Positions 1,092 through 42,574 of a DNA stretch of 64,000 nucleotides are shown here, one piece after another. How positions within the stretch are numbered: position 1 is the stretch's first letter; the number at the start of each line of letters is the position of its first letter. Origin of the DNA: Cordylochernes scorpioides. Its lineage: Eukaryota; Arthropoda; Arachnida; Pseudoscorpiones; Chernetidae. Both the position numbers and the translations under genes were made by a program. The notes beneath the pieces are model-generated. The model did not search any database and was not told the origin of the DNA. It was given only the letters and a program-made list of their open reading frames with translations. The stretch lies in NCBI GenBank assembly GCA_030710605.1, contig CP092863.1, positions 111,597,530 to 111,661,529 on the forward strand, in the 5' to 3' direction.

Positions 1092-1431
1092 TGTTACATC
1101 ATGATTAATGGCGTATTTCTTATATTAGTTTTAATATATTTGAAATTTAAATTACATATTTATTTATTTTTATATAAAATATTCTATGATATTTATTTAA
1201 AACAGATTATTAATTTATCATCATTTGTATTTAGGTACACTGTGACTTCACTGCTCTCTTTGATGTGAGAAAATAAAAAAAGGATTCTGGTGGCTACTTA
1301 AAGAAGACTTATCTCATTATTCCCTTTTATAAATTTGTAGGATGGTTGAAACACGCTCTGGTAAGATGCAAGACCCAGCACAGGAGAGAATCCAGGCTGA
1401 AGAGTCTGCCAAGCCGCAACCTGGTGCAACA
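1092..1431 (+). repeat. 5' LTR
   Basis: 340 bp, TG...CA ends with TGTT/AACA inverted termini. An AATAAA polyadenylation signal lies at about 1272-1277. The last 90 bases (from ATG at 1342) encode the first 30 codons of gag, so the LTR is partly coding. Confidence 0.93.
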
Positions 1432-2490
1432 ATTGGTAGAGATGCTAGTTCCGACCCAGTTGTCCTGAATCCCAACATCGACATCCCCAAGTATGATGGA
1501 ACGGAAGACCCTCGCCCATGGATTGAATCTCTTGAAGAAATTGGCTTCTTGTACCATTGGGCAGACTACATTATCTCTCGTTATGCCGCCATGAACATGA
1601 CGGGAAGCGCTAAAACCTGGTTGAATTTACACAAAGCTAGTTTCACGAGCTGGGAAAATATTAAAATCCGCCTCATTCAGGATTTTTCTTTGGACGCGAA
1701 TAAAGAAGAACTTAGAATAAAGCTCAACAGAATGCAACACTGGAATGAACCAGCAATCAGGTTCGCGGAAGACATTCTAGTGTTGTGCAACAAGGTTGAC
1801 CCCGCAATGGAAGAAGAAACAAAAATTGAACATGTTATTGGAGGACTGAAAAAAGAGTACTCATTCGCGCTCTACCTGAACCCTCCTAAAACGACCGATG
1901 ACCTTCTTGTCGTGTGCAAGAAAATGGATTATTTTGAAAAGAAGTATCGGGAACGTGTGGAGAAATCCAGAAACCTATATAACGGTCCACGCTATTCTAG
2001 ACCCCAACAACAATCGAGGTACGTGCCGCCGACTGCCGCACGAAACTACCAGACCACTTCCAGGCCCCAAGCCCCTGTTTCCAATAATTACAAGAACGAC
2101 TCCCCTTCTACCCCCAGACAGTATCGAAACAACTTTCCCCAGCCCTCTACCCCTAGACGTCCTTATAATCCTAACTTTGTGCCGAAACCAAACCTTCAGA
2201 GAAACACTTACAATAAAAGCCAAGAAGTGAGCAAAAATAGGACGGAAGATGGAAGACCAATCTGCTTTAAATGTAACAAGCCAGGGCACGTGGCCCGTTA
2301 TTGTAGGGTCAAGTTTATAAGAATCCTAGAAGAGGATCCAGCAGATACCCAAGAGAAGGTCGAAGAGAAAGGCCAAATGAATGAAATATCAGAGAAATCA
2401 GGACCTCGGCTTTATGCTGATGTATGTCATAGCACACAGACAAATATTCCTACCCGGAATAGATATTCCGTGTTGGAAGATTTAAACTAA
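1342..2490 (+). CDS. gag: Gag polyprotein of the LTR retrotransposon
   Basis: 382 residues. It supplies the capsid and nucleocapsid of the intracellular particle that packages element RNA. The middle (about 45-210) resembles retrotransposon capsid regions, with a WIESLE segment and a FSLDANKEELR segment. A Pro/Asn/Arg-rich linker follows, then one CCHC zinc knuckle at about 308-321 (C-X2-C-X4-H-X4-C), which binds RNA. The ATG lies inside the 5' LTR and the frame continues through the LTR end and the primer-binding site, so those signals are translated. The frame stops at 2488-2490 directly after the heptamer TTTAAAC (2481-2487). Translation normally stops there; a -1 slip gives Gag-Pol. No internal defects are seen. 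Confidence 0.9.
   Translation: MVETRSGKMQDPAQERIQAEESAKPQPGATIGRDASSDPVVLNPNIDIPKYDGTEDPRPWIESLEEIGFLYHWADYIISRYAAMNMTGSAKTWLNLHKASFTSWENIKIRLIQDFSLDANKEELRIKLNRMQHWNEPAIRFAEDILVLCNKVDPAMEEETKIEHVIGGLKKEYSFALYLNPPKTTDDLLVVCKKMDYFEKKYRERVEKSRNLYNGPRYSRPQQQSRYVPPTAARNYQTTSRPQAPVSNNYKNDSPSTPRQYRNNFPQPSTPRRPYNPNFVPKPNLQRNTYNKSQEVSKNRTEDGRPICFKCNKPGHVARYCRVKFIRILEEDPADTQEKVEEKGQMNEISEKSGPRLYADVCHSTQTNIPTRNRYSVLEDLN
1434..1451 (+). promoter_or_regulatory. Candidate tRNA primer-binding site
   Basis: Starts TGGTAGAGATGC two bases after the 5' LTR, as expected for pairing with a tRNA 3'-CCA end. I cannot assign the tRNA without a tRNA set. It lies within gag. Confidence 0.6.
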
Positions 2491-5400
2491 GCGTCGCGCC
2501 TGAATCTGTCAATCAAAGCAAGTCGACCATAAACGGAATCAAGAAGTTGGACCCTAAATACAAATTAAAAATTAAAGTGGACAAGATAGGGACTTTTGAA
2601 GCTTTGGTTGATACAGGTGCTGACCTCTCAGTGGTCGACCTCAGAACGGCCCTCGATACAGGCCAGGGTATAAGTAAACTCGCAAAAATTTGTGCAGGAC
2701 CCGATGGAAAAAAATTGGACATGGTAGGAAGTATATTTTTAAATATAAAAATTGATGACGAAACATTATCACACAACTTTGTGATATTGAAAACGCATTT
2801 ACGGACATTAATTCTTGGGAGAGATTTCCTTAAGAAAATGAACGCAAAAATAGATTGTAAGCAAGAAACTATAAAATATGATTTGACGAATAATCATGAC
2901 GAAATCAATTTTGAAATGTTGAAAATAAAGAGTGCCAAGGATTCCATTGTACCGGAATGTTCCATGAAATTGATCAAGGCATTGGTAGAAACAGAGGATG
3001 GAGAATATATTATCGAGGAGAGCAGCAAAATGTTTCAAACAAATGGACTTCGTCTAGCAAGAAGCTTGATCAATGTTATAAATAGGGAAACACACATCTG
3101 GATAACTAATCCGTATCCTCGACCGTTAAAAATAATGAAAAACCAAACATTGGCTTTTGGAAGTAGTCCAGCGAAAATAAATGTGAGTCGAGAAAGAGAG
3201 GTAGAAAAGAACGAAGAACCTAGATTCCAAATAAACGAAAATCTTTCACCAAAGGAACAGAAGGAGTTAAAACAAGTTTTAGAAAGGTATGGAGATCTTT
3301 TTTCATCGAGATTAGGGAGAACCAATTTGGCAAAACATCGGATAGACACAGAAGACGCGAAGCCAATTAAACACAAGCCTTACCGGGTAAGTGCTAAAGA
3401 ACGAGATATTATAAAAGAGCAAATTGACGAGATGCTTACAGAAGGCATAATTAGGCCATCTTCTAGCCCCTGGTCTTTTCCAGTAATATTGGTCAAGAAG
3501 CGAGATGGTAAATACAGATTTTGTGTGGACTACAGAAAACTGAATAATGTGACAGTAAAAGATGTCTATCCGATCCCTAGAATAGACGAAGTTATGGATA
3601 CTCTCCAAGGATCTACACACTTCTCAGCAATAGACCTCAGATCTGGATATTGGCAAGTTGAAGTCGAAGAAAGAGACAAAGAAAAAACAGCTTTCACTAC
3701 AGCGCATGGATTATATGAATTCAACGTGATGCCTTTTGGACTTTGTAACGCGCCTGCTACCTTTGAGAGAAATATGGAGAATATGCTTGGAAATCTGAGA
3801 TGGCAAATTTGTTTGTGTTATCTGGATGATGTTATCATATATAGCCCGGATTTTCCAACGCACCTCAAAAGACTTGAAGCTGTTTTTAGATGTTTTCGTG
3901 AATCTAATTTAAGGTTAAACGACAAAAAATGCCGATTTGCTTTTGAAGAATTGGAGATCCTCGGCTATATAACGAGCAAACATGGTATAAAACCCGCGGA
4001 ACATAACATCAAAGCTGTCAGAAATTTTCCTCGGCCCAAAAAGGTCAAAGAAGTACAATCCTTTTTGGGAATGTGTTCATATTATAGAAAATTTATCAAA
4101 GACTTTTCAAAAATTGCTGACCCTTTGACCAACCTTATAAAAAAAAGTGTATCATTTACCTGGACAGAAAGACAAGAGGAAGCGTTCCAAACCCTAAAAA
4201 CAGCACTATTAAGTCCACCAATTTTAGGTCACTTCAATCCAAATGCACCTACTTATGTTCATACTGATGCGTCCAACATCGGCATAGGTGCAACACTTGT
4301 CCAAGACATCGGTGGTGAAGAGAAGGTGATCTCATACTTGAGTCGTACCCTAAGTAAAGCGGAGCAAAATTATTCAACCACTGAAAAAGAATGTCTGGCC
4401 GTTGTCTGGTCAATGTCAAAATTACGACCCTACCTTTATGGAAGACACTTTAAAATAGTAACAGACCATCACGCCTTATGCTGGCTCAAAAACTTGAAGG
4501 ATCCAACAGGTCGATTGGCAAGATGGGCATTGAAAATTCAAGAATATGACTTCGATATAATACATAAATCGGGAAAGAAGCATCTGGACGCCGATGGCTT
4601 ATCTAGGGGGCCCTTACCAGAAACTGATTGGGATGAGGATTTTGAAAGGCTATTTTTAAATCAAATAACAGACGAAGAGGATAAATTTATCGAAAGTGTT
4701 AAGAAAAACCTTAATGGAAGCAGGCGATCAATTGCGCAAAACTTTAAAGAAGAAGATGGATGCCTCTTTAAGAAAAACCCGAACCCTGAAGGCAGGGCGT
4801 GGTTGCTTGTGGTTCCAGAGAATAAAAAGAGAGAAATTATGAAAGAATATCACAATCATATGTCGAATGGCCATCTGGGCGTCGCCAGAACCATGTACCG
4901 AATAAAGAGTAAATACTTTTGGCCATCCATGCTAAAGGATGTCTCAGAATTCGTTAAGACGTGTCACCTTTGCCAAAGTAGGAAAGGCTCAAATCAATTA
5001 CCTTCTGGACTACTACAGCCCATCCCCCCAGCCAACTTTCCTTTCGAAAGAATTGGAATTGACTTTGTTGGTCCACTACCATCTACGAAAAACAGGAAAA
5101 AATGGATAATCGTGCTGACGGACTACTACACTAGATATGCAGAAACAAGAGCAGTCTCGGAAGCAACAGTGAAAGAAGTTTCAAAATTTCTAGTAGAGGA
5201 TATTTTTCTTCGGCACGGAGCCCCACAATATCTTATTAGTGACAGAGGCTCTCAATTTACCAGTAATTTAATGAAAGAGGTGATGAAAACGTGCAAGATT
5301 AAACATTGCTTCACAACGAGCTATCATCCCCAGACTAATGGATTGACAGAGCGGTTAAATAGAACATTGATCAATATGCTCAGTATGTATGTGAACACTG

Positions 5401-5954
5401 ATCAGAAAAATTGGGACGAAATACTCCCATTCATCACTCACGCTTACAATACTACAATTCAGGAAACCACAGGATATTCTCCCTTTTTCCTGATGTTTGG
5501 AAGAGAACCCACGTCTCTTTTGGACGACAGGAATATCTCGGTGGACATTGACAAAGATGATTATGATGAATACATAAAACATCACTTAGACAAAATAAAC
5601 AGAACAAGAAAATTAGTTATTAACAACACAATAAAGACTCAAGAAAGAATGAAAAAGAACTATGACAAGAAACACATGGAAAGAAGCTACGAACCAGGAG
5701 AATTAGTAGCAGTTTGGACACCAATTAGGAAAATAGGAAAGTGTGAGAAACTACTGAGAAAATATTTTGGCCCATATAGAATATTAGAGAAGCTGTCCAA
5801 CGTAAATTACTTAATTGAACCAAAAGATAATCCTGGCCAAGACCCATTGATTGTCCATGTCTCAAGAATCAAACCCTATTTTGAAAGAATTGATGAGGTC
5901 AATCACGAGGACGTGACGACCTCTGGAGAGGGGGAAGTGTTACATCATGATTAA
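2463..5954 (+). CDS. pol: Pol polyprotein (protease, RT, RNase H, integrase)
   Basis: The open -1 frame runs from 2463. About 1,135 residues follow the first plausible residue encoded at 2547 (a TTG, not ATG), and I number from there. Aspartic protease has DTGA at 22-25. Reverse transcriptase has its catalytic YLDD near 425. RNase H begins near TDAS at about 573. Integrase follows, with an HHCC zinc domain (H residues about 768-780, CHLC near 807) and a DDE triad at about D838, D898 and E934. Together they copy element RNA to DNA and insert it. The order RT-RNaseH-IN is Ty3/gypsy. The stop codon (5952-5954) lies inside the 3' LTR. All catalytic motifs appear intact. Confidence 0.92.
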   Translation: MFRVGRFKLSVAPESVNQSKSTINGIKKLDPKYKLKIKVDKIGTFEALVDTGADLSVVDLRTALDTGQGISKLAKICAGPDGKKLDMVGSIFLNIKIDDETLSHNFVILKTHLRTLILGRDFLKKMNAKIDCKQETIKYDLTNNHDEINFEMLKIKSAKDSIVPECSMKLIKALVETEDGEYIIEESSKMFQTNGLRLARSLINVINRETHIWITNPYPRPLKIMKNQTLAFGSSPAKINVSREREVEKNEEPRFQINENLSPKEQKELKQVLERYGDLFSSRLGRTNLAKHRIDTEDAKPIKHKPYRVSAKERDIIKEQIDEMLTEGIIRPSSSPWSFPVILVKKRDGKYRFCVDYRKLNNVTVKDVYPIPRIDEVMDTLQGSTHFSAIDLRSGYWQVEVEERDKEKTAFTTAHGLYEFNVMPFGLCNAPATFERNMENMLGNLRWQICLCYLDDVIIYSPDFPTHLKRLEAVFRCFRESNLRLNDKKCRFAFEELEILGYITSKHGIKPAEHNIKAVRNFPRPKKVKEVQSFLGMCSYYRKFIKDFSKIADPLTNLIKKSVSFTWTERQEEAFQTLKTALLSPPILGHFNPNAPTYVHTDASNIGIGATLVQDIGGEEKVISYLSRTLSKAEQNYSTTEKECLAVVWSMSKLRPYLYGRHFKIVTDHHALCWLKNLKDPTGRLARWALKIQEYDFDIIHKSGKKHLDADGLSRGPLPETDWDEDFERLFLNQITDEEDKFIESVKKNLNGSRRSIAQNFKEEDGCLFKKNPNPEGRAWLLVVPENKKREIMKEYHNHMSNGHLGVARTMYRIKSKYFWPSMLKDVSEFVKTCHLCQSRKGSNQLPSGLLQPIPPANFPFERIGIDFVGPLPSTKNRKKWIIVLTDYYTRYAETRAVSEATVKEVSKFLVEDIFLRHGAPQYLISDRGSQFTSNLMKEVMKTCKIKHCFTTSYHPQTNGLTERLNRTLINMLSMYVNTDQKNWDEILPFITHAYNTTIQETTGYSPFFLMFGREPTSLLDDRNISVDIDKDDYDEYIKHHLDKINRTRKLVINNTIKTQERMKKNYDKKHMERSYEPGELVAVWTPIRKIGKCEKLLRKYFGPYRILEKLSNVNYLIEPKDNPGQDPLIVHVSRIKPYFERIDEVNHEDVTTSGEGEVLHHD
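2481..2487 (+). promoter_or_regulatory. -1 ribosomal frameshift heptamer between gag and pol
   Basis: TTTAAAC is positioned as T TTA AAC in the gag frame, the canonical X XXY YYZ pattern, immediately before the gag TAA. The pol frame is open from 2463 onward in the -1 frame and has no ATG near its start, so frameshifting is the simplest route to Pol. I did not fold the downstream stimulator. Confidence 0.8.
5925..5937 (+). promoter_or_regulatory. Polypurine tract
   Basis: GGAGAGGGGGAAG ends immediately before the 3' LTR at 5938, the expected plus-strand primer position. It is also translated as part of pol. Confidence 0.85.
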
Positions 5955-6277
5955 TGGCGTATTTCTTATATTAGTTTTAATATATTTGAAATTTAAATTA
6001 CATATTTATTTATTTTTATATAAAATATTCTATGATATTTATTTAAAACAGATTATTAATTTATCATCATTTGTATTTAGGTACACTGTGACTTCACTGC
6101 TCTCTTTGATGTGAGAAAATAAAAAAAGGATTCTGGTGGCTACTTAAAGAAGACTTATCTCATTATTCCCTTTTATAAATTTGTAGGATGGTTGAAACAC
6201 GCTCTGGTAAGATGCAAGACCCAGCACAGGAGAGAATCCAGGCTGAAGAGTCTGCCAAGCCGCAACCTGGTGCAACA
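5938..6277 (+). repeat. 3' LTR
   Basis: 340 bp, indistinguishable by eye from the 5' LTR. It contains the pol stop codon at its left end and a second copy of the gag start (ATG at 6188), which here opens only the 30-codon LTR portion. Confidence 0.93.
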
Positions 6278-6605
6278 ATATTAGGAACCTGAACCTTTCA
6301 GGTTAGAAAGATAATCACGAATATATTTACAAAAATAGTTAAACCTATGTTAATTCTCTCTGCTATTTACAAATTGATATAGATCTACAACATTATTTAT
6401 TGTTTGTTATCTAGCGGTAAAGAAAAGTGGACATTCCAGCAGTAGGTGTCTCGAGTCCTGTATTTCCTTGTCACAATGACAACTAGAGTCCTCAACCGCT
6501 CCAAATTTTGATAAATAGCTTTTGAAACTGTTTTGTTTATTATAAAAGACCTTGACTTCACGTTATCTGAACTGCAACTTTCCTTCCAGTAATTTTTGTT
6601 GGCCA
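6278..6605 (-). pseudogene. LINE reverse-transcriptase C-terminus (family L1h)
   Basis: Reverse-complement reading gives the C-terminal zinc-type motif of LINE ORF2 proteins: a Cys-X-Cys pair, then SRHLLLECPLF, ending at a stop (6407-6409). The same motif recurs at 39865-40017 and 45766-45911. Upstream codons are broken by stops and frame changes. The LTR element separates this part from its 3' tail at 950-1091. Clade is uncertain (CR1/Jockey-like by motif only). Confidence 0.6.
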
Positions 6606-32139: not shown

Positions 32140-33853
32140 AAAGGTCACTGTAATATCTTTCAGAGTTATTGTCTGAATCCCGATATACATGCTGAAAGGT
32201 ACAACTTCCTTAAGTTTTGTCCATGAGTGTATCATGAAGAGTTATTGTCTGAATCCCGATATACATGCTAAAAGGTACAACAACCTTAAGTTTTGCCCAT
32301 GAGTGTATCTTTCAGAGTTATTGTCTGATTCCCGATATACATACTAAAAGGTACAACTTCCTTAAGTTTTGTCCATGAGTGTATCTTTCAGAGTTATTGT
32401 CTGAATCCCGATATACATGTTTAAAGGTACAACTTCCTTAAGTTCTGTTCATGAGTGTATCTTTCAGAGTTATTGTCTGAATCCCGATGTACATATTTAA
32501 AGGTACAACTTCCTTAAGTTTTGTCCATGAGTGTATCTTTCAGAGTTATCGTCTGAATCCCGATGTACATATTTAAAGGTACAACTTCCTTAAGTTTTGT
32601 CCATGAGTGTATCTTTCAGAGTTATTGTCTGAATCCCGATATACATGTTTAAAGGTGTAACTTCCTTAAGTTCTGTCCATGAATCCCGATATACATGCTA
32701 AAAGGTACAACAACCTTAAGTTTTGTCCATGAGTGTATCTTTCAGAGTTATTGTCTGATTCCCGATATACATACTAAAAGGTACAACTTCCTTAAGTTTT
32801 GTCCATGAGTGTATCTTTCAGAGTTATTGTCTGAATCCCGATATACATGTTTAAAGGTACAACTTCCTTAAGTTCTGTTCATGAGTGTATCTTTCAGAGT
32901 TATTGTCTGAATCCCGATGTACATATTTAAAGGTACAACTTCCTTAAGTTTTGTCCATGAGTGTATCTTTCAGAGTTATCGTCTGAATCCCGATGTACAT
33001 ATTTAAAGGTACAACTTCCTTAAGTTTTGTCCATGAGTGTATCTTTCAGAGTTATTGTCTGAATCCCGATATACATGTTTAAAGGTGTAACTTCCTTAAG
33101 TTCTGTCCATGAATACCGATATACATGCTAAGAGGTACAACTTCCTTAAATTCTGTCCATGAGTGTATCTTTCAGAGTTATTGTCTGAATCTCGATATAC
33201 ATGCTTAGGGTACAACTTCCTTAAGTTTTGTCCACGAGTGTATCTTTCAGAGTTATTGTCTCAATCCCGATATACCTGTTTAAAGGTACAACTTCCTTAA
33301 GTTTTGTCCATGAGTGTATCCATCAGAGTTATTGTCTAAATCCCGATATACATTTTTACAGGAACAACTTCCTTAAGTTTTGTCCATGAGTGTATCTTTC
33401 AAAGTTATTGTCTCGATCCCGATATACATGTTTAAAGGTACAACTTCCTTAAGTTCTGTCCATGAGTGTATCTTTCAGAGTTATTGTCTGAGAGAATCCC
33501 GATATACATATTTAAAGGTACAACTTCCTTAAGTTCTGTCAATGAGTGTATCTTTCAGAGTTATTGTCTGAATCCCGATATACATGTTTAAAGGTACAAT
33601 TTCCTTAAGTTCTGTCCATGAGTGTATCTTTCAGAGTTATTGTCTGAATCCCGATACACATATTTAAAGGTACAACTTCCTTAAGTTTTGTCCATGAGTT
33701 TATCTTTCAGATTTATTGTCTGAATCCCGATATACATACTAAAAGGTACAACTTCCTTAAGTTTTGTCCATGAGTGTATCTTTCAGAGTTATTGTCTCAA
33801 TCCCGATATACATGCTAAAAGGTACAACTTCCTTAAGTTTTGTCAATGAGTTT
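32140..33853. repeat. 76-bp satellite array, left part
   Basis: Unit: TTCAGAGTTATTGTCTGAAT, CCCGATATACATGCTAAAAG, GTACAACTTCCTTAAG, TTTTGTCCATGAGTGTATC. Variation is mostly point changes (TTTAAAGG for CTAAAAGG). Confidence 0.9.
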
Positions 33854-34059
33854 TGTCGCATACCTCGAGATATTTGCATAATATTGTTTTGTTTTATATA
33901 TTTTTACATGTTGTTTCTTATGAAAGGTTGATATATTTGCATGTCCGCGAGAAGCGCGATGTATATATATAGGTCAAGAGAATAATAAAGTTAGAGTTTC
34001 TATTGCTTTGGAGCTTCTCTTATTCTTTCTAACTCGTTCTTTTTAATTAGAACACTACA
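33854..34059 (+). repeat. 5' LTR of the kinase element
   Basis: 206 bp with TG...CA ends. A TATATATATA box near 33962-33972 and AATAAA at 33984-33989 mark likely promoter and polyadenylation sites, leaving a short R/U5 region. Confidence 0.88.
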
Positions 34060-34062
34060 ATT

Positions 34063-34217
34063 ATGGCGCAGCCGACAGGATCGTCGAATTCGACCATTAA
34101 AAGCCTCATCAGGGCGATGGCTGACCAGCAGCGCTTGATGAGGGACCAGCAACGCTTGATGATGAATATTCTTTTTAAAAATAAGAAAGAAGAATATTTC
34201 AGCGAAGAAGAAGAGGA

Positions 34218-34253
<36 letters not shown>

Positions 34254-34398
34254 GGATGAAGAGGAAGAAGAAGAAGAAGAAGAAGAAGAAGAAGAGGAGG
34301 AAGAGGAAGAGAGCCTTGAGTCTCTAGAAAGTATTGAGTCCGAAATAAGTCTTGAAAAGTCTGAAAAAAGTCAAAAGGCTCAAGTTGAAAAAAAATGA
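34063..34398 (+). pseudogene. N-terminal part of the kinase-element protein
   Basis: 111 codons from an ATG overlapping the primer-binding site. It begins MAQPTGSSNSTIKSLIRAM and has a predicted helical QQRLM repeat, then a ~40-residue Glu-rich run (about 46-86). The frame ends at 34396 just after an A8 run (34388-34395). The next frame (from 34352) continues with a second SLIR..QQRLMMDLLF copy of the same motif, so the break is a frameshift, not a natural end. The QQRLM segment might derive from a parental gag; that is a guess. Confidence 0.6.
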
Positions 34399-34696
34399 AA
34401 GCCTCATCAGGACGATGGCGAAGCAGCAACGCCTGATGATGGACTTGCTTTTCGAAAAGAAGAATGAAATGGTAGATGAAGAGGATTTCTATGAACCTGA
34501 TAATGGTGCGGAAGGAAAAGAAATGGTTGAATATGATGATTCAAAGGTGGAAGAAAAGATAGATGCAGAACAAGGTACTGATTCAAAGGTGGCAGAAGAA
34601 AAGCAAGATGCAGAACAAGGTACTGATTCAAAGGTGGAAGAAAAAATACTGATCCAAAAGATGTTAAGAATGAAAGTGAGCTTGAAAATAATTTGA
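34352..34696 (+). pseudogene. Middle part of the kinase-element protein (+1 frame)
   Basis: Meaningful from about 34396. It repeats the SLIR..QQRLMM motif, then an acidic region with two DAEQGTDSKV repeats. Sense is lost after an A6 run (34641-34646), where the main frame takes over one base back. Both breaks are in A homopolymers and compensate each other, so sequencing error or a polymorphic frameshift is plausible. Confidence 0.55.
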
Positions 34697-36825
34697 GTAC
34701 AGATTCTGGATTCGAAGTAGGTAAACCAGCATCTATAGGACATTTATATGACATGATTCCTAAGTGGACTAATCCCATGTTATTCGTTGGCAATGAAGAC
34801 GAACCTTCTGTTTCTCACCAGCATGTTTTCAAGCACGATCGTAGTATGATGTGGTGTAACCAGACTAGAGAAGCGCTAAAACGCTTGGATTTGAATGAGA
34901 TACATAGCCACGAAATCAATGGCGTAGACTTTTCCAAAGACGCAGCAAAAAAGGACTTTGCAATAATAAAGAACCCCGTCTATTTTGAGAGACTTCAACT
35001 TTTAAGAGATGTGGAAGTCGAAGGTTTGATCAACGGAGTTAAAATATCTAATCAAGACTTGTACCTGGGCGACTACCTAACTGTTCACGGTGACTTGATC
35101 GTAGCCAGATTGGTGATTGACGGTGAAGTCAACGGTGTTAACCTGGACGATGTCGTTCGAACCAAGGGTAGTCAGGCAATAACTGGACCCGTTAATTTCT
35201 CCGATTCCATAGGAGTTAGTGGAACGCTGCACGTCCATAATGTTTACACTGGCACTGTGAACCAAGTCAATCTGGAAGAACTTTTCTTCAACAAGCTGAC
35301 GTACTCCACCCGTCAGGTAGTACCAGGCCACAAGATAATCCACGGAACTGTAAGCCTCTCTCCGGGTGCAGATCTAGACACCTATGCTATAAACGAAGTG
35401 AGCCCTCGCTCCTTGTTTGAAGACACCTTGCCTCTAAACGAGCCTATAGTTATCTATGAAAATGTCACGTTTCTAGACGGCGTAAGCATCGATAACATCT
35501 GGCATGGCACCAATTATCATTTGTGGGAATTAAGTGACGATTTCATTCTATATAACGGAAGCCAAGAAATATATGGAGATATAGATTTGGTCAATGTGCT
35601 CAATGTAAAAGATTTTTGGATTGTTCGTGATTTGGGATCTAAATGTTTTTCAAATTTTATTGAAGATAGTGAAAAGAATAATTTGGATTTGCATGATATG
35701 AATTTATCTCATTTTGTCGTCTTTCATCCTGAATATGGAGGGAAATCTCTAAAGAAAGTATTGGAAAATGGAAAACTTTTGCCAGAACAATTATTGAGCA
35801 TTCTTTGTCAGATTTGTATTTTGATGAGTAATGCTGAGCAAAACATCGGGTTGGTTCACATTGATATAAGTCCCAGAAATACTCTGATACGACCGACTGC
35901 TCAAAAGGTTTTGAACTACGACATTGGAGAAGAGAATTATGAAATCCCAACCAACAACTGCATTGCCAAATTGAAAGATTTTGAAATATCTCGACTTGTA
36001 AAGAATGATAATCCTAATCCGAGTGCTTTTTACGAGAATGTTTCTCAGCTAATTTGGACCCATAATGAAATGCGAGAATTTAAATCTGCTTGTGAAATGC
36101 ATACTGAATTCATTGAGGAGACATCAACGCAGATTGCCGTTGAAGAAAGTCAAAAATCTCATTTAGAAACTGAAGACTTGGATGAGTTGGGAGTCCCATA
36201 TCTCTGGCTAGTTGTCTTGAAGAAAGCTCCTCAGGCCAGCAAGTACATCCAACCCTATGACTGTTCAAGACCTGCAGACGATGTCTCTAGGCCTGCAGAC
36301 GATGCCTCTAAACCTGCAGACGATGCCTATAAACCTGCAGACGATGCCCCAAAACCTGCAGAAGATGCCTCTAATCCTGCAGACGATGTCTCTAAGCCTG
36401 CAGACGATGCCTCTAAACCTGCAGACGATGCCTCTAAACCTGCAGACGATGCCTCTAAATCTGCAGACGATGCCTTTAAGCCTGCAGACGATACCTTTAA
36501 GCCTGCAGACGATACCCCTAAGCCTGCAGACGATACCTCTAAGCCTGCAGACGATACCTCAAAGCCTGCAGACGATACCTTTGGGCCTTCAGACGATACC
36601 TCTAGGCCTTCAGACGATACCTCTAAGTCTTCAGATCTTCAACGAAATAAAAAACCTTCAAAGGAGTCCCATCACAGGAGTGATGAGAGGTCATGGAGGG
36701 GGAGTCTGTCGCATACCTCGAGATATTTGCATAATATTGTTTTGTTTTATATATTTTTACATGTTGCTTCTTATGAAAGTTTGATATATTTGCATGTCCG
36801 CGAGAAGCGCGATGTATATATATAG
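34627..36825 (+). CDS. Haspin-like kinase C-lobe protein with NGV repeats, LTR-borne
   Basis: 710 residues counted from 34693 (TTG; the frame is open from 34627 and continues the two preceding pieces). Residues ~70-310 hold four or five ~42-residue repeats with NGV-x-(L/I) followed by Q-x-I-x-G, likely beta-rich. Residues ~340-500 resemble the haspin kinase C-lobe: YGGKSLKKVL (347-356), a helix with an AEQN segment, VHIDISPRN (388-396; catalytic Asp391 and Asn396 kept, HRD Arg replaced by Ile), LKDFEISRL (427-435; metal Asp429), then WLVVL near 505-512. No ATP-binding N-lobe or beta-3 lysine is apparent, so it may be a pseudokinase. Residues ~523-650 are KPADDAS-type heptads. The frame ends inside the 3' LTR. 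Substrate and role unknown. Confidence 0.6.
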   Translation, partial: FKGGRKNTDPKDVKNESELENNLSTDSGFEVGKPASIGHLYDMIPKWTNPMLFVGNEDEPSVSHQHVFKHDRSMMWCNQTREALKRLDLNEIHSHEINGVDFSKDAAKKDFAIIKNPVYFERLQLLRDVEVEGLINGVKISNQDLYLGDYLTVHGDLIVARLVIDGEVNGVNLDDVVRTKGSQAITGPVNFSDSIGVSGTLHVHNVYTGTVNQVNLEELFFNKLTYSTRQVVPGHKIIHGTVSLSPGADLDTYAINEVSPRSLFEDTLPLNEPIVIYENVTFLDGVSIDNIWHGTNYHLWELSDDFILYNGSQEIYGDIDLVNVLNVKDFWIVRDLGSKCFSNFIEDSEKNNLDLHDMNLSHFVVFHPEYGGKSLKKVLENGKLLPEQLLSILCQICILMSNAEQNIGLVHIDISPRNTLIRPTAQKVLNYDIGEENYEIPTNNCIAKLKDFEISRLVKNDNPNPSAFYENVSQLIWTHNEMREFKSACEMHTEFIEETSTQIAVEESQKSHLETEDLDELGVPYLWLVVLKKAPQASKYIQPYDCSRPADDVSRPADDASKPADDAYKPADDAPKPAEDASNPADDVSKPADDASKPADDASKPADDASKSADDAFKPADDTFKPADDTPKPADDTSKPADDTSKPADDTFGPSDDTSRPSDDTSKSSDLQRNKKPSKESHHRSDERSWRGSLSHTSRYLHNIVLFYIFLHVASYESLIYLHVREKRDVYI
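36262..36640 (+). repeat. 21-bp coding repeat (PADD heptads)
   Basis: About 18 in-frame units of CCTGCAGACGATGCCTCTAA encoding K-P-A-D-D-A/T-S. Codon-phase repeat variation keeps the frame. Confidence 0.85.
36695..36706 (+). promoter_or_regulatory. Polypurine tract of the kinase element
   Basis: GGAGGGGGAGTC directly precedes the 3' LTR. Confidence 0.7.
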
Positions 36826-36912
36826 GTCAAGAGAATAATAAAGTTAGAGTTTCTATTGCTTTGGAGCTTCTCTTATTCTTTCTAACTCGTTCTTTTTAAT
36901 TAGAACACTACA
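36707..36912 (+). repeat. 3' LTR of the kinase element
   Basis: 206 bp; differs from the 5' LTR at two positions (T/C and G/T around the CTTATGAAAG segment). Contains the stop codon of the protein at 36823-36825. Confidence 0.88.
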
Positions 36913-38278
36913 TCTTTCAGAGTTATTGTCTCAATACCGATATACATGCTAAAAGGTACAACTTCCTTAAGTCTTCTCCATGAGTGTATCTTTCAGAGTT
37001 ATTGTCTGAATCCCGATATACATGCTAAAAGGTACAGCTTCCTCAAGTCTTGTCGATGAGTTTATCTTTCAGAGTTATTGTCTGAATCCCGATATACATG
37101 CTAAAAGGTACAACTTCCTTAAGTCTTGTCTATGAGTGTATCTTTCAGAGTTATTGTCTGAATCCCGATATACATGCTAAAAGGTACAACTTCCTTAAGT
37201 CTTGTCCATGAGTTTATCTTTCAGATTTATTGTCTGAATTCCGATATACATGATAAAAGGTACAACTTCCTTAAGTTTTGTCCATGAGTGTATCTTTCAG
37301 AGTTATTGTCTCAATCCCGATATACATGCTAAAGGGTACAACTTCCTTAAGTTTTGTCCATGAGTGTATCTTTCAGATTTATTGTCTGAACCCCGATATA
37401 CATGCTAAAAGGTACAACTTCCTTAAGTCTTGTCCATGAGTGTATCTTTCAGAGTTATTGTCTGAATCCCGATATACATGCTAAAAGGTACAACTTCCTT
37501 AAGTCTTGTCCATGAGTGTATCTTTCAGATTTATTGTCTGAACCCCGATATACATGCTAAAAGGTACAACTTCCTTAAGTTTTGTCCATGAGTGTATCTT
37601 TCAGAGTTAATGTCTCAATCCCGATATACACGCTAAAAGGTACAACTTCCTTAAGTCTTGTCTATGAGTGTATCTTTCAGAGTTATTGTCTGAATCCCGA
37701 TATACATGCTAAAAGGTACAACTTCCTTAAGTCTTGTCCATGAGTGTATCTTTCAGATTTATTGTCTGAATTCCGATATACATGATAAAAGGTACAACTT
37801 CCTTAAGTTTTGTCCATGAGTGTATCTTTCAGAGTTAATGTCTCAATCCCGATATACACGCTAAAAGGTACAACTTCCTTAAGTCTTGTCTATGAGTGTA
37901 TCTTTCAGAGTTATTGTCTGAATCCCGATATACATGCTAAAAGGTACAACTTCCTTAAGTCTTGTCCATGAGTGTATCTTTCAGAGTTATTGTCTGAATC
38001 CCGATATACATGCTAAAAGGTACAACTTCCTTAAGTCTTGTCCATGAGTGTATCTTTCAGATTTATTGTCTGAACCCCGATATACATGCTAAAAGGTACA
38101 ACTTCCTTAAGTTTTGTCCATGAGTGTATCTTTGAGAGTTATTGTCTGAATCCCGATATACATGCTAAAAGGTACAACTTCCTTAAGTTTTGTCCCTGAG
38201 TGTATCTTTCAGAGTTATTGTCTGAATCCCGATATACATGCTAAAAGGTACAACTTCCTTAAGTTTTGTCCATGAGTG
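36913..38278. repeat. 76-bp satellite array, right part
   Basis: About 18 units. Here the TTAAGTCTTGTC variant is common, unlike the left part, and a several-unit block with GAACCCCG and TCTCAATCCCG variants recurs, indicating local higher-order repeats. Confidence 0.9.
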
Positions 38279-38544
38279 TATATAGAGAGACCATTGTAAA
38301 AAGTCTGATGTAAATACTTGTGATCTAAAGTTTACGTTTTATATAAATAAATGTCTAATGAAAGAAAATAGTTACTGTACGTATTTCGTGGTCCAAATGT
38401 CAATATATATAATTTTAAATATCAATATTCTATGTCATGATGTTTTTTCTATCTTTATTTGGGGATCAATAGACATTCTTCAAATTTCTCCCTCTATATA
38501 CAAATGAAAACACCTAAACGCAAATGTTTCTTTTCACAAATATA

Positions 38545-41144: not shown

Positions 41145-42540
41145 CTTCGGATTCACACGGTTAGCTACTTCCTTTGACATGGATGGAATGGTCTTCGGAC
41201 CCAACACATATACAGTTAGCACTCCCCTTGACAAGGATGGAATGATCTTCTGACCCAACACATAAACAGTTAGCACTCCCCTTGACAAGGATGGAATGAT
41301 CTTCGGACCCAACACATATACAGTTAGCACTCCCCTTGACAAGGATGGAATGGTCTTCGGACCCAACACATATACAGTTAGCACTCACCTTGACAAGAAT
41401 GGGATGATCTTCGGACCCAACACATATGCAGTTAGCACTCCCCTTTACAAGGATTGAATGGTCTTCGAACCCATAACATATACAGTTAGCACTCCCCTTG
41501 ACAAGGATGGAATGGTCTTCGGACCCAACACATATACAGTTAGCACTCCTTAGCACTCCCCTTGACAAGGATGGAATAGTCTTCGGACCCAACACATATA
41601 CAGTTAGCACTCCCCTTGACAAGGATGGAATGATCTTCGGACCCAACACATATACAGTTAGCACTCCCCTTTACAAGGATTGAATGGTCTTCGGACCCAT
41701 AACATATACAGTTAGCACTCCTCTTGACAAGGATGGAATGGTCTTCGGACCCATAACATATACAGTTAGCACTCCCCTTGACAAGGATGGAATTATCTTC
41801 GGACCCAACACATATACAGTTAGCACTCCCCTTGACAAGGATGGAATGATCTTCGGACCCAACACATATACAGTTAGCACTCCCCTTGACAAGGATACAA
41901 TGGTCTTAGGACCCTACACATATGCAGTTAACACTCCCCTTGACAAGGATACAATGGTCTTCGGACCCAATACATATACAGTTAGCACTCCCCTTGACAA
42001 GGATGGAATGATCTTCGGACCCAACACATATACAGTTAGCACTCCCCTTGACAAGGATACAATGGTCTTAGGACCCTACACATATGCAGTTAACACTCCC
42101 CTTGACAAGGATACAATGGTCTTCGGACCCAATACATATACAGTTAGCACTCCCCTTGACAAGGATGGAATGGTCTTCGGACCCATAACATATACAGTTA
42201 GCACTCCTCTTGACAAGGATGGAATGGTCTTCGGACCCATAACATATACAGTTAGCACTCCCCTTGACAAGGATGGAATGATCTTCGGACCCAACACATA
42301 TACAGTTAGCACTCCCCTTGACAAGGATGGAATGATCTTCGGACCCAACACATATACAGTTAGCACTCCCCTTGACAAGGATACAATGGTCTTAGGACCC
42401 TACACATATGCAGTTAACACTCCCCTTGACAAGGATACAATGGTCTTCGGACCCAATACATATACAGTTAGCACTCCCCTTGACAAGGATGGAATGGTCT
42501 TCGGACCCAATACATATGCTTAGCTCTTTCCTCGACAAGG
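41145..42540. repeat. 54-bp tandem array
   Basis: About 25 units of CAGTTAGCACTCCCCTTGAC, AAGGATGGAATGGTCTTCGG, ACCCAACACATATA. A three-unit block with ACAATGGTCTTAGGACCCTAC recurs three times, so a higher-order repeat exists. As 54 is divisible by three, an 18-residue repeat stays open on both strands (279 codons forward from 41684). No start context or flanking coding sequence supports a gene. Confidence 0.88.
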
Positions 42541-42574
42541 ATGGAATGGTGCCTTTAGACTTTGTTCCTTATTC

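Follow-up and report, generated by a model that had tools for sequence, protein, structure and literature searches.

In a 64,000-nt stretch of the genome of the pseudoscorpion Cordylochernes scorpioides (GenBank assembly GCA_030710605.1, contig CP092863.1, positions 111,597,530–111,661,529; hereafter the window), an element flanked by long terminal repeats (LTRs) was found at positions 33854–36912. This window copy is very probably a member of a multi-copy, non-autonomous C. scorpioides LTR-retrotransposon family with an interior made of cellular-gene fragments. Our verdict is that the family is real, was mobile in the past and is chimeric. Judged by sequence similarity, its cargo is a chimera of three recognisable cellular families (SRR1, nucleosome assembly protein (NAP) and haspin) and an NGV-repeat protein, placed behind an element-specific head; the NGV-repeat protein is probably also a piece of a host gene. 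The initial annotation of this DNA had proposed a retrotransposon derivative that captured a cellular gene. Cellular-type cargo does replace gag-pol, but it is the above chimera and not one gene.

The two 206-bp LTRs of the window copy, reported in the initial annotation, differed at two positions and form a near-identical pair (Table 1). Because TATATA and AATAAA are present in each of them, one compact LTR may supply both the promoter and the polyadenylation signal. The primer binding site described earlier (TGGCGCAGCCGACAGGAT, starting with TGG 4 nt after the 5′ LTR) was recovered, and we take it to pair with tRNA-Ser. The polypurine tract (GGAGGGGGAG) was present as well, but did not touch the 3′ LTR, since two nucleotides (TC) intervene. 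Translation of the head frame (MAQPTGSSNSTIKSLIRAMADQQ...) starts at an ATG that overlaps the primer binding site, and therefore the first codons of the head would be dictated by the complement of the tRNA. A GAA repeat (34204–34310) encodes a Glu-rich run later in this frame. As originally described, the open interior passes through three frames (34051–34398, 34349–34696 and 34627–36825), and the longest frame comprised 693 codons, compared with a maximum of 240 in 2000 Markov-simulated sequences. No reverse transcriptase, protease or integrase was detected in the window copy with Pfam or with tblastn using two pol queries, in agreement with the initial annotation.

Table 1. Features of the window copy and its flanks (window positions).
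Feature	Position	Strand	Remarks
Left flank, 76-nt satellite array	33110..33851	.	
5′ LTR	33854..34059	+	206 nt; TG...CA ends; TATATA at 33962; AATAAA at 33984
Head frame	34063..34398	+	ATG at 34063 overlaps primer site; stop 34396–34398
Primer binding site	34064..34081	+	TGG start, 4 nt past 5′ LTR
Second frame	34349..34696	+	Second head-motif copy and Glu/Lys repeats
NGV-repeat module	34720..35604	+	Five NGV-like motifs: 34912, 35026, 35125, 35254, 35470
Haspin-like kinase fragment	35608..36027	+	EYGG 35731, HIDISPRN 35857, KDFEISRL 35974; no N-lobe, no C-lobe beyond SRL
NAP fragment	36028..36261	+	Cut at QPYD
21-nt tandem repeat coding (S/T)KPADD(A/T)	36271..36635	+	
Polypurine tract	36695..36704	+	2 nt (TC) gap to 3′ LTR
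3′ LTR	36707..36912	+	206 nt
Right flank, 76-nt satellite continuing in register	36912..38281	.	No target-site duplication

A search of the assembly (2.62 Gb, 24 contigs; the window lies on C1) with the LTR gave 40 matches scored out of 1716 candidates. These matches, the two of the window included, were spread over 15 of the 24 contigs, and the remaining 38 places were fetched as 27 loci. Fifteen complete copies were compared, namely 14 fetched loci and the window copy; loci L043 and L046, with two LTRs each, stand outside this set. In L026 and L033, the end of the 3′ LTR was placed by hand. The pairs L023/L025 and L026/L033 shared their flanks and are therefore duplicated segments, which leaves 13 independent insertions. 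Several copies with different flanks, as anticipated for a mobile element, were thus found.

Target duplications of 5–7 bp bounded 11 of the 13 independent insertions. Eight single LTRs were tested, and the four without cargo or a second LTR nearby were counted as solo LTRs (L036, L038, L040 and L047); all four had 5-nt target duplications. The divergence between the LTRs of a copy was 0–0.029 in 14 of the 15 copies. It reached 6.3% in L025 (13 of 205 positions, compared with 3 in its duplicate L023), pointing to poor sequence or to an exchange of one of the two LTRs. The primer site had no mismatches in nine copies and at most two in all 15, the head ATG overlapped it in 13 copies, and a polypurine tract lay beside the 3′ LTR in every copy. 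Copy size was 2.9–5.1 kb, with long frames inside, and neither of the two pol queries matched any of the 15 complete copies.

Two main architectures were observed. In the commoner order, the head is followed by Glu/Lys-rich repeats, SRR1 and a short NAP piece (YDEPVLAYLKDV), and then by the first 69 NGV residues, a short linker, the haspin-like kinase, NAP, the PADD repeat and the polypurine tract. Haspin and NGV pieces were present in all 15 copies and the haspin-adjoining NAP piece in 14 (it is missing in L037). SRR1 with the short NGV piece occurred in nine copies, a long NGV module without SRR1 in five (the window copy, where SRR1 was not found, L021, L022, L023 and L025), and L032 had neither SRR1 nor the long NGV module. 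SRR1, NAP, haspin and NGV were found together inside single copies read as DNA. SRR1 passed the Pfam cut-off (24 bits) in L029 and L037 (41.1 and 43.4 bits), with E-values of 2.3e-10 in one DNA-read copy and 4.8e-12 in the annotated protein P0001. The NAP matches of the window copy and L029 (17.3 and 26.4 bits) were both below the Pfam cut-off of 28.6 bits. The NAP domain of protein P0002 passed it with 102 bits (E 3.4e-29), and the window piece was 88% identical to P0002 across haspin and NAP. The NGV part had no match by sequence in the PDB, and the head gave nothing near a Pfam cut-off.

P0001 and P0002 belong to seven host proteins with cargo of this element that are annotated by NCBI (P0001–P0007), one of them under the name GSG2; several appear fused to adjacent transposon genes. 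They are gene models, whereas the window and the fetched loci were read as DNA. A related head was seen in P0003 and P0006. Further cargo in P0006, DDT or the Mec-17 acetyltransferase, was considered and dropped, because these stretches may be adjoining exons fused by gene prediction. The protein of the main frame of the window copy gave five matches among the best 7999 candidates scored, all from C. scorpioides.

Among kinases, haspin had the best similarity to the cargo kinase. The window piece matched solved haspin with an E-value of 2.7e-6; a profile built from five kinase pieces of the family gave 1e-10 for solved haspin and 3e-5 for the next non-haspin kinase, and the full L029 frame reached only 0.004 with haspin. 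The three haspin-like segments to which the initial annotation had pointed were confirmed (EYGG, HIDISPRN and KDFEISRL). Its description of NGV repeats fused to a kinase C-lobe held in that both parts are present, but the NAP fragment had been missed and the C-lobe after SRL is missing. The window kinase starts after the alpha-C region and runs into NAP after SRL, so that there is no complete two-lobed kinase; the truncation was placed by motif positions that we take to be those of haspin. The catalytic Asp and Asn (within HIDISPRN in the window copy) were kept in the window copy, L026, L029 and L035, and Glu replaced the catalytic Asp in P0001 and P0004. The N-lobe is missing, and a working kinase is unlikely. 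A second kinase type (27–33% identical) was present in P0003 and P0006.

Ratios of nonsynonymous to synonymous substitution rates (dN/dS) were computed for each module. The filtered sets excluded L025 (duplicate of L023) and L033 (duplicate of L026 and the most decayed copy) and, by our own choice, the copies that lacked the respective module or aligned poorly. Filtered values were 0.78 for NGV (0.52–1.17, n = 4 copies), 0.82 for SRR1 (0.47–1.84, n = 7), 0.88 for haspin (0.42–3.03, n = 9) and 1.53 for NAP (0.62–7.44, n = 9). All four are compatible with no constraint. Since the intervals include 1, a passenger cargo is likelier than a maintained protein. No frame was open from head to tract in any of the 15 copies. 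The first frame change of the window copy was missing in three of its four long-NGV sister copies and the second in all four; these sisters have other frame breaks instead.

In the mosaic copy L035, an NGV core of 578 bp, 98% identical to that of the window copy, lies upstream of SRR1 and not downstream. Its 5′ junction falls inside a 7-nt stretch, GTGGAAG, that is common to the element repeat and the NGV sequence, and this one junction is as predicted by reverse transcriptase switching between two packaged RNAs. Neither the 3′ junction of L035 nor the junction between NGV and kinase in the window copy had a clear shared stretch of that length. The two main architectures and the mosaic with its microhomology junction suggest that template switching during reverse transcription shaped the cargo. 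Such a mechanism has been described (PMC5408686, PMC13317346). We propose that RNA started in the 5′ LTR would be packaged and then copied by the reverse transcriptase and integrase of a partner element; mobilisation in trans, put forward in the initial annotation, is inferred only. Host pieces would have been acquired by template switching at microhomologies, later shuffling of pieces between copies would have proceeded likewise, and the encoded protein would be mostly a passenger that is not needed. A further-reaching reading is that the family is a running gene-shuffling engine, in which pieces of at least three, probably four host genes are exchanged between copies at short microhomologies; novel long frames would thereby arise at many sites across the chromosomes, and some of these frames are annotated as host genes. 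We regard this as plausible and stop just short of favouring it.

Candidate sources were sought in the host genome. A search with NGV residues 101–327 (all 35 candidates scored) gave 32 matches, all at least 85% identical. Twelve of these, L035 among them, span only about query residues 28–220, and therefore a second arrangement exists. Two matches on C24 (134138613–134139293 and 134270247–134270927) were 96% identical over the NGV stretch and lie inside open frames that are 1586 and 1993 residues long. For the haspin family, 112 of 588 host candidates were scored, and 113 matches exceeded the cut-off; 97 of these had no internal stop and many were clustered. In a control with 14 bacterial genomes, three gave haspin matches, none above the cut-off. 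Haspin-like sequences are greatly expanded in this arachnid genome, with matches for example at C5 43–51 Mb, C17 75.8 Mb and C3 147.2–147.4 Mb (loci L048–L057). The ten best host loci had frames of 319–451 residues, all with HRDLH, and no LTR match. The cargo kinase matched five of them (26–32% identity) and the P0003-type kinase all ten (23–30% identity).

The initial annotation had suggested looking for an intron-containing parental gene. None was found among the haspin-like matches of the host, most of which are open frames with apparently intronless kinase cores. The missing introns of the cargo kinase accordingly do not prove that RNA was involved. Intronless haspin genes occur in mammals too (PMC8254168).

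Several observations weigh against the reading of the window copy as a member of a mobile, non-autonomous family with captured cellular genes. Target duplications are missing at L030 and at the window copy, the latter being inserted in phase with the surrounding 76-nt satellite. Of the 11 duplications found, six consist of nothing but TATAT/ATATA and lie in AT-rich flanks, so that they could easily have matched by chance. An autonomous partner was not found: pol between LTRs was absent from all 38 scored places other than the two of the window copy (40 scored among 1716 candidates). The two C24 frames are candidate source genes only and could also be element-derived. The window frame gave no match to the Pfam Haspin_kinase model at E up to 1, and the fuller kinase piece of P0001 reached 15.9 bits against a cut-off of 25. 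The dN/dS intervals are wide, and the pooled unfiltered values over all copies were lower for NGV (0.67) and SRR1 (0.73) than the filtered ones; the unfiltered values for haspin and NAP were 0.90 and 1.21. Finally, L029 and L037 have open frames of 771 and 770 codons, and the protein could matter.

The last point leads to the view that the fused protein serves the element, in place of Gag, by targeting chromatin or in packaging, and that selection maintains it. Such a role would fit the long frames, that of the window copy included, a start codon fused with the primer site (13 of 15 copies) and the four copies with both catalytic residues. We nevertheless consider it improbable, given dN/dS values of 0.78–1.53 with intervals that include 1, the lack of any copy open from head to tract, the kinase without an N-lobe and the Glu in place of the catalytic Asp in P0001 and P0004. 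A different question is how the pieces were taken up. They may have been acquired at the DNA level, by recombination or gap repair beside or inside the element, and not by template switching from mRNA. With 97 of the 113 host haspin-like matches free of stops, an intronless cargo kinase says nothing on an RNA step, and the window copy without target duplication indicates that unusual DNA events occur here. We hold uptake from DNA to be unlikely, though clearly worth considering, as several cellular-type segments in sense orientation follow one another head to tail within the stretch bounded by the primer site and the polypurine tract, and the L035 microhomology fits RNA-template switching, even if by itself it also fits some DNA repair.

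The origin of the cargo can also be disputed. It might be an accessory gene of a virus-like element, comprising a viral kinase and a fibre-like protein, and not be host-derived. Weak matches point that way: in the NCBIfam/PHROGs search, a virion structural family was matched by the NGV part at E 0.15 and a phage serine-threonine kinase family by the kinase at E 0.016, and the NGV module of the window copy resembled bactofilin below the cut-off. However, eukaryotic haspin, NAP and SRR1 match best, and the host itself has 113 haspin-like matches, which makes a viral source very improbable. A search of phage DNA gave no match to the element, and a search of viral contigs with an LTR word gave none either. 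Hardly credible is the idea that these are host genes, a multigene family of fusions that happens to be placed between the LTRs of insertions unrelated to it. The NCBI listing of seven such proteins as host genes, GSG2 among them, might be cited for this idea. It is refuted by the placement of the head on the primer site and the end of the interior at the polypurine tract in 15 copies, by LTR pairs less than 3% different in 14 of 15 copies and by the target duplications that bound most copies.

Two further features of the window were recorded. A Ty3/gypsy element occupies 1092–6279. Its 342-nt LTRs are identical, both gag and pol have long frames, and ATAT is its likely target duplication. The gag frame starts inside the 5′ LTR, and a likely primer site, identified by eye, lies within gag. 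This gypsy element was rejected as the partner, since its LTR and primer site differ. Matches to pol at L044, L045 and L047 fall outside the chimeric element itself, those at L045 and L047 being 97–100% identical to this gypsy element. L022 and L031 had reverse-strand matches to its gag, which look like later insertions. At 41323–42563, nine of ten Rfam matches were to U6atac and lay on a 54-nt tandem repeat (41160–42550); they probably represent a satellite that resembles part of that RNA.

The nearest relative in kind appears to be maize Bs1, an LTR element with segments of three host genes and the source of a chimeric reading frame (PMC13317346, PMC5408686). In both systems, pieces of more than one cellular gene lie in one LTR element. 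The pseudoscorpion family may be seen as an animal, multi-copy analogue; unlike Bs1, as far as the sources describe it, it has another gene set, many copies, and two main architectures with a mosaic. In LTR-mediated retroposition of metazoans, host mRNA is brought into an LTR element when templates are switched at microsimilarities (PMC5408686). The process is described there as yielding retrocopies, whereas here a multi-gene chimera is the interior of a dispersed family. Crocodilian endogenous retroviruses captured host mRNAs, KIT-ligand and nectin3 (PMC4299795), and are likewise animal LTR retroelements with host mRNA capture. One gene per element is named in the abstract and section titles of that study, compared with several pieces and no recognised viral genes in the pseudoscorpion family. 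LTR retrotransposons of bdelloid rotifers contain extra third open reading frames (ORF3s) besides gag and pol (PMC5408684). These are also additional enzymatic frames in animal LTR elements, but gag and pol are kept.

Non-autonomous LTR elements with target duplications are known from PbTRIM of the harvester ant, with solo LTRs (PMC3532108), and Helenus, with a primer site and a polypurine tract (PMC10886601). As these terminal-repeat retrotransposons in miniature are described, they are small; the pseudoscorpion element, at about 3 kb with a long coding cargo, exceeds such a size. The abstract of a 2008 study on a C. elegans DNA transposon states that transduplication had been unknown in animals until then (PMC2572040). 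Among the entries shown from the open-licence literature, no publication described this element or a retrotransposon with haspin.

Maize Bs1 is the best-documented case of an LTR element that captured several genes. The C. scorpioides family has many copies whose LTRs have diverged little, it comes in alternative architectures, and its junctions can be read, so that the order of capture and shuffling could be worked out copy by copy. For the annotation of this genome, the finding means that seven annotated C. scorpioides proteins, including GSG2, contain cargo of the element. The analysis also revealed that the host has unusually many haspin-like sequences.

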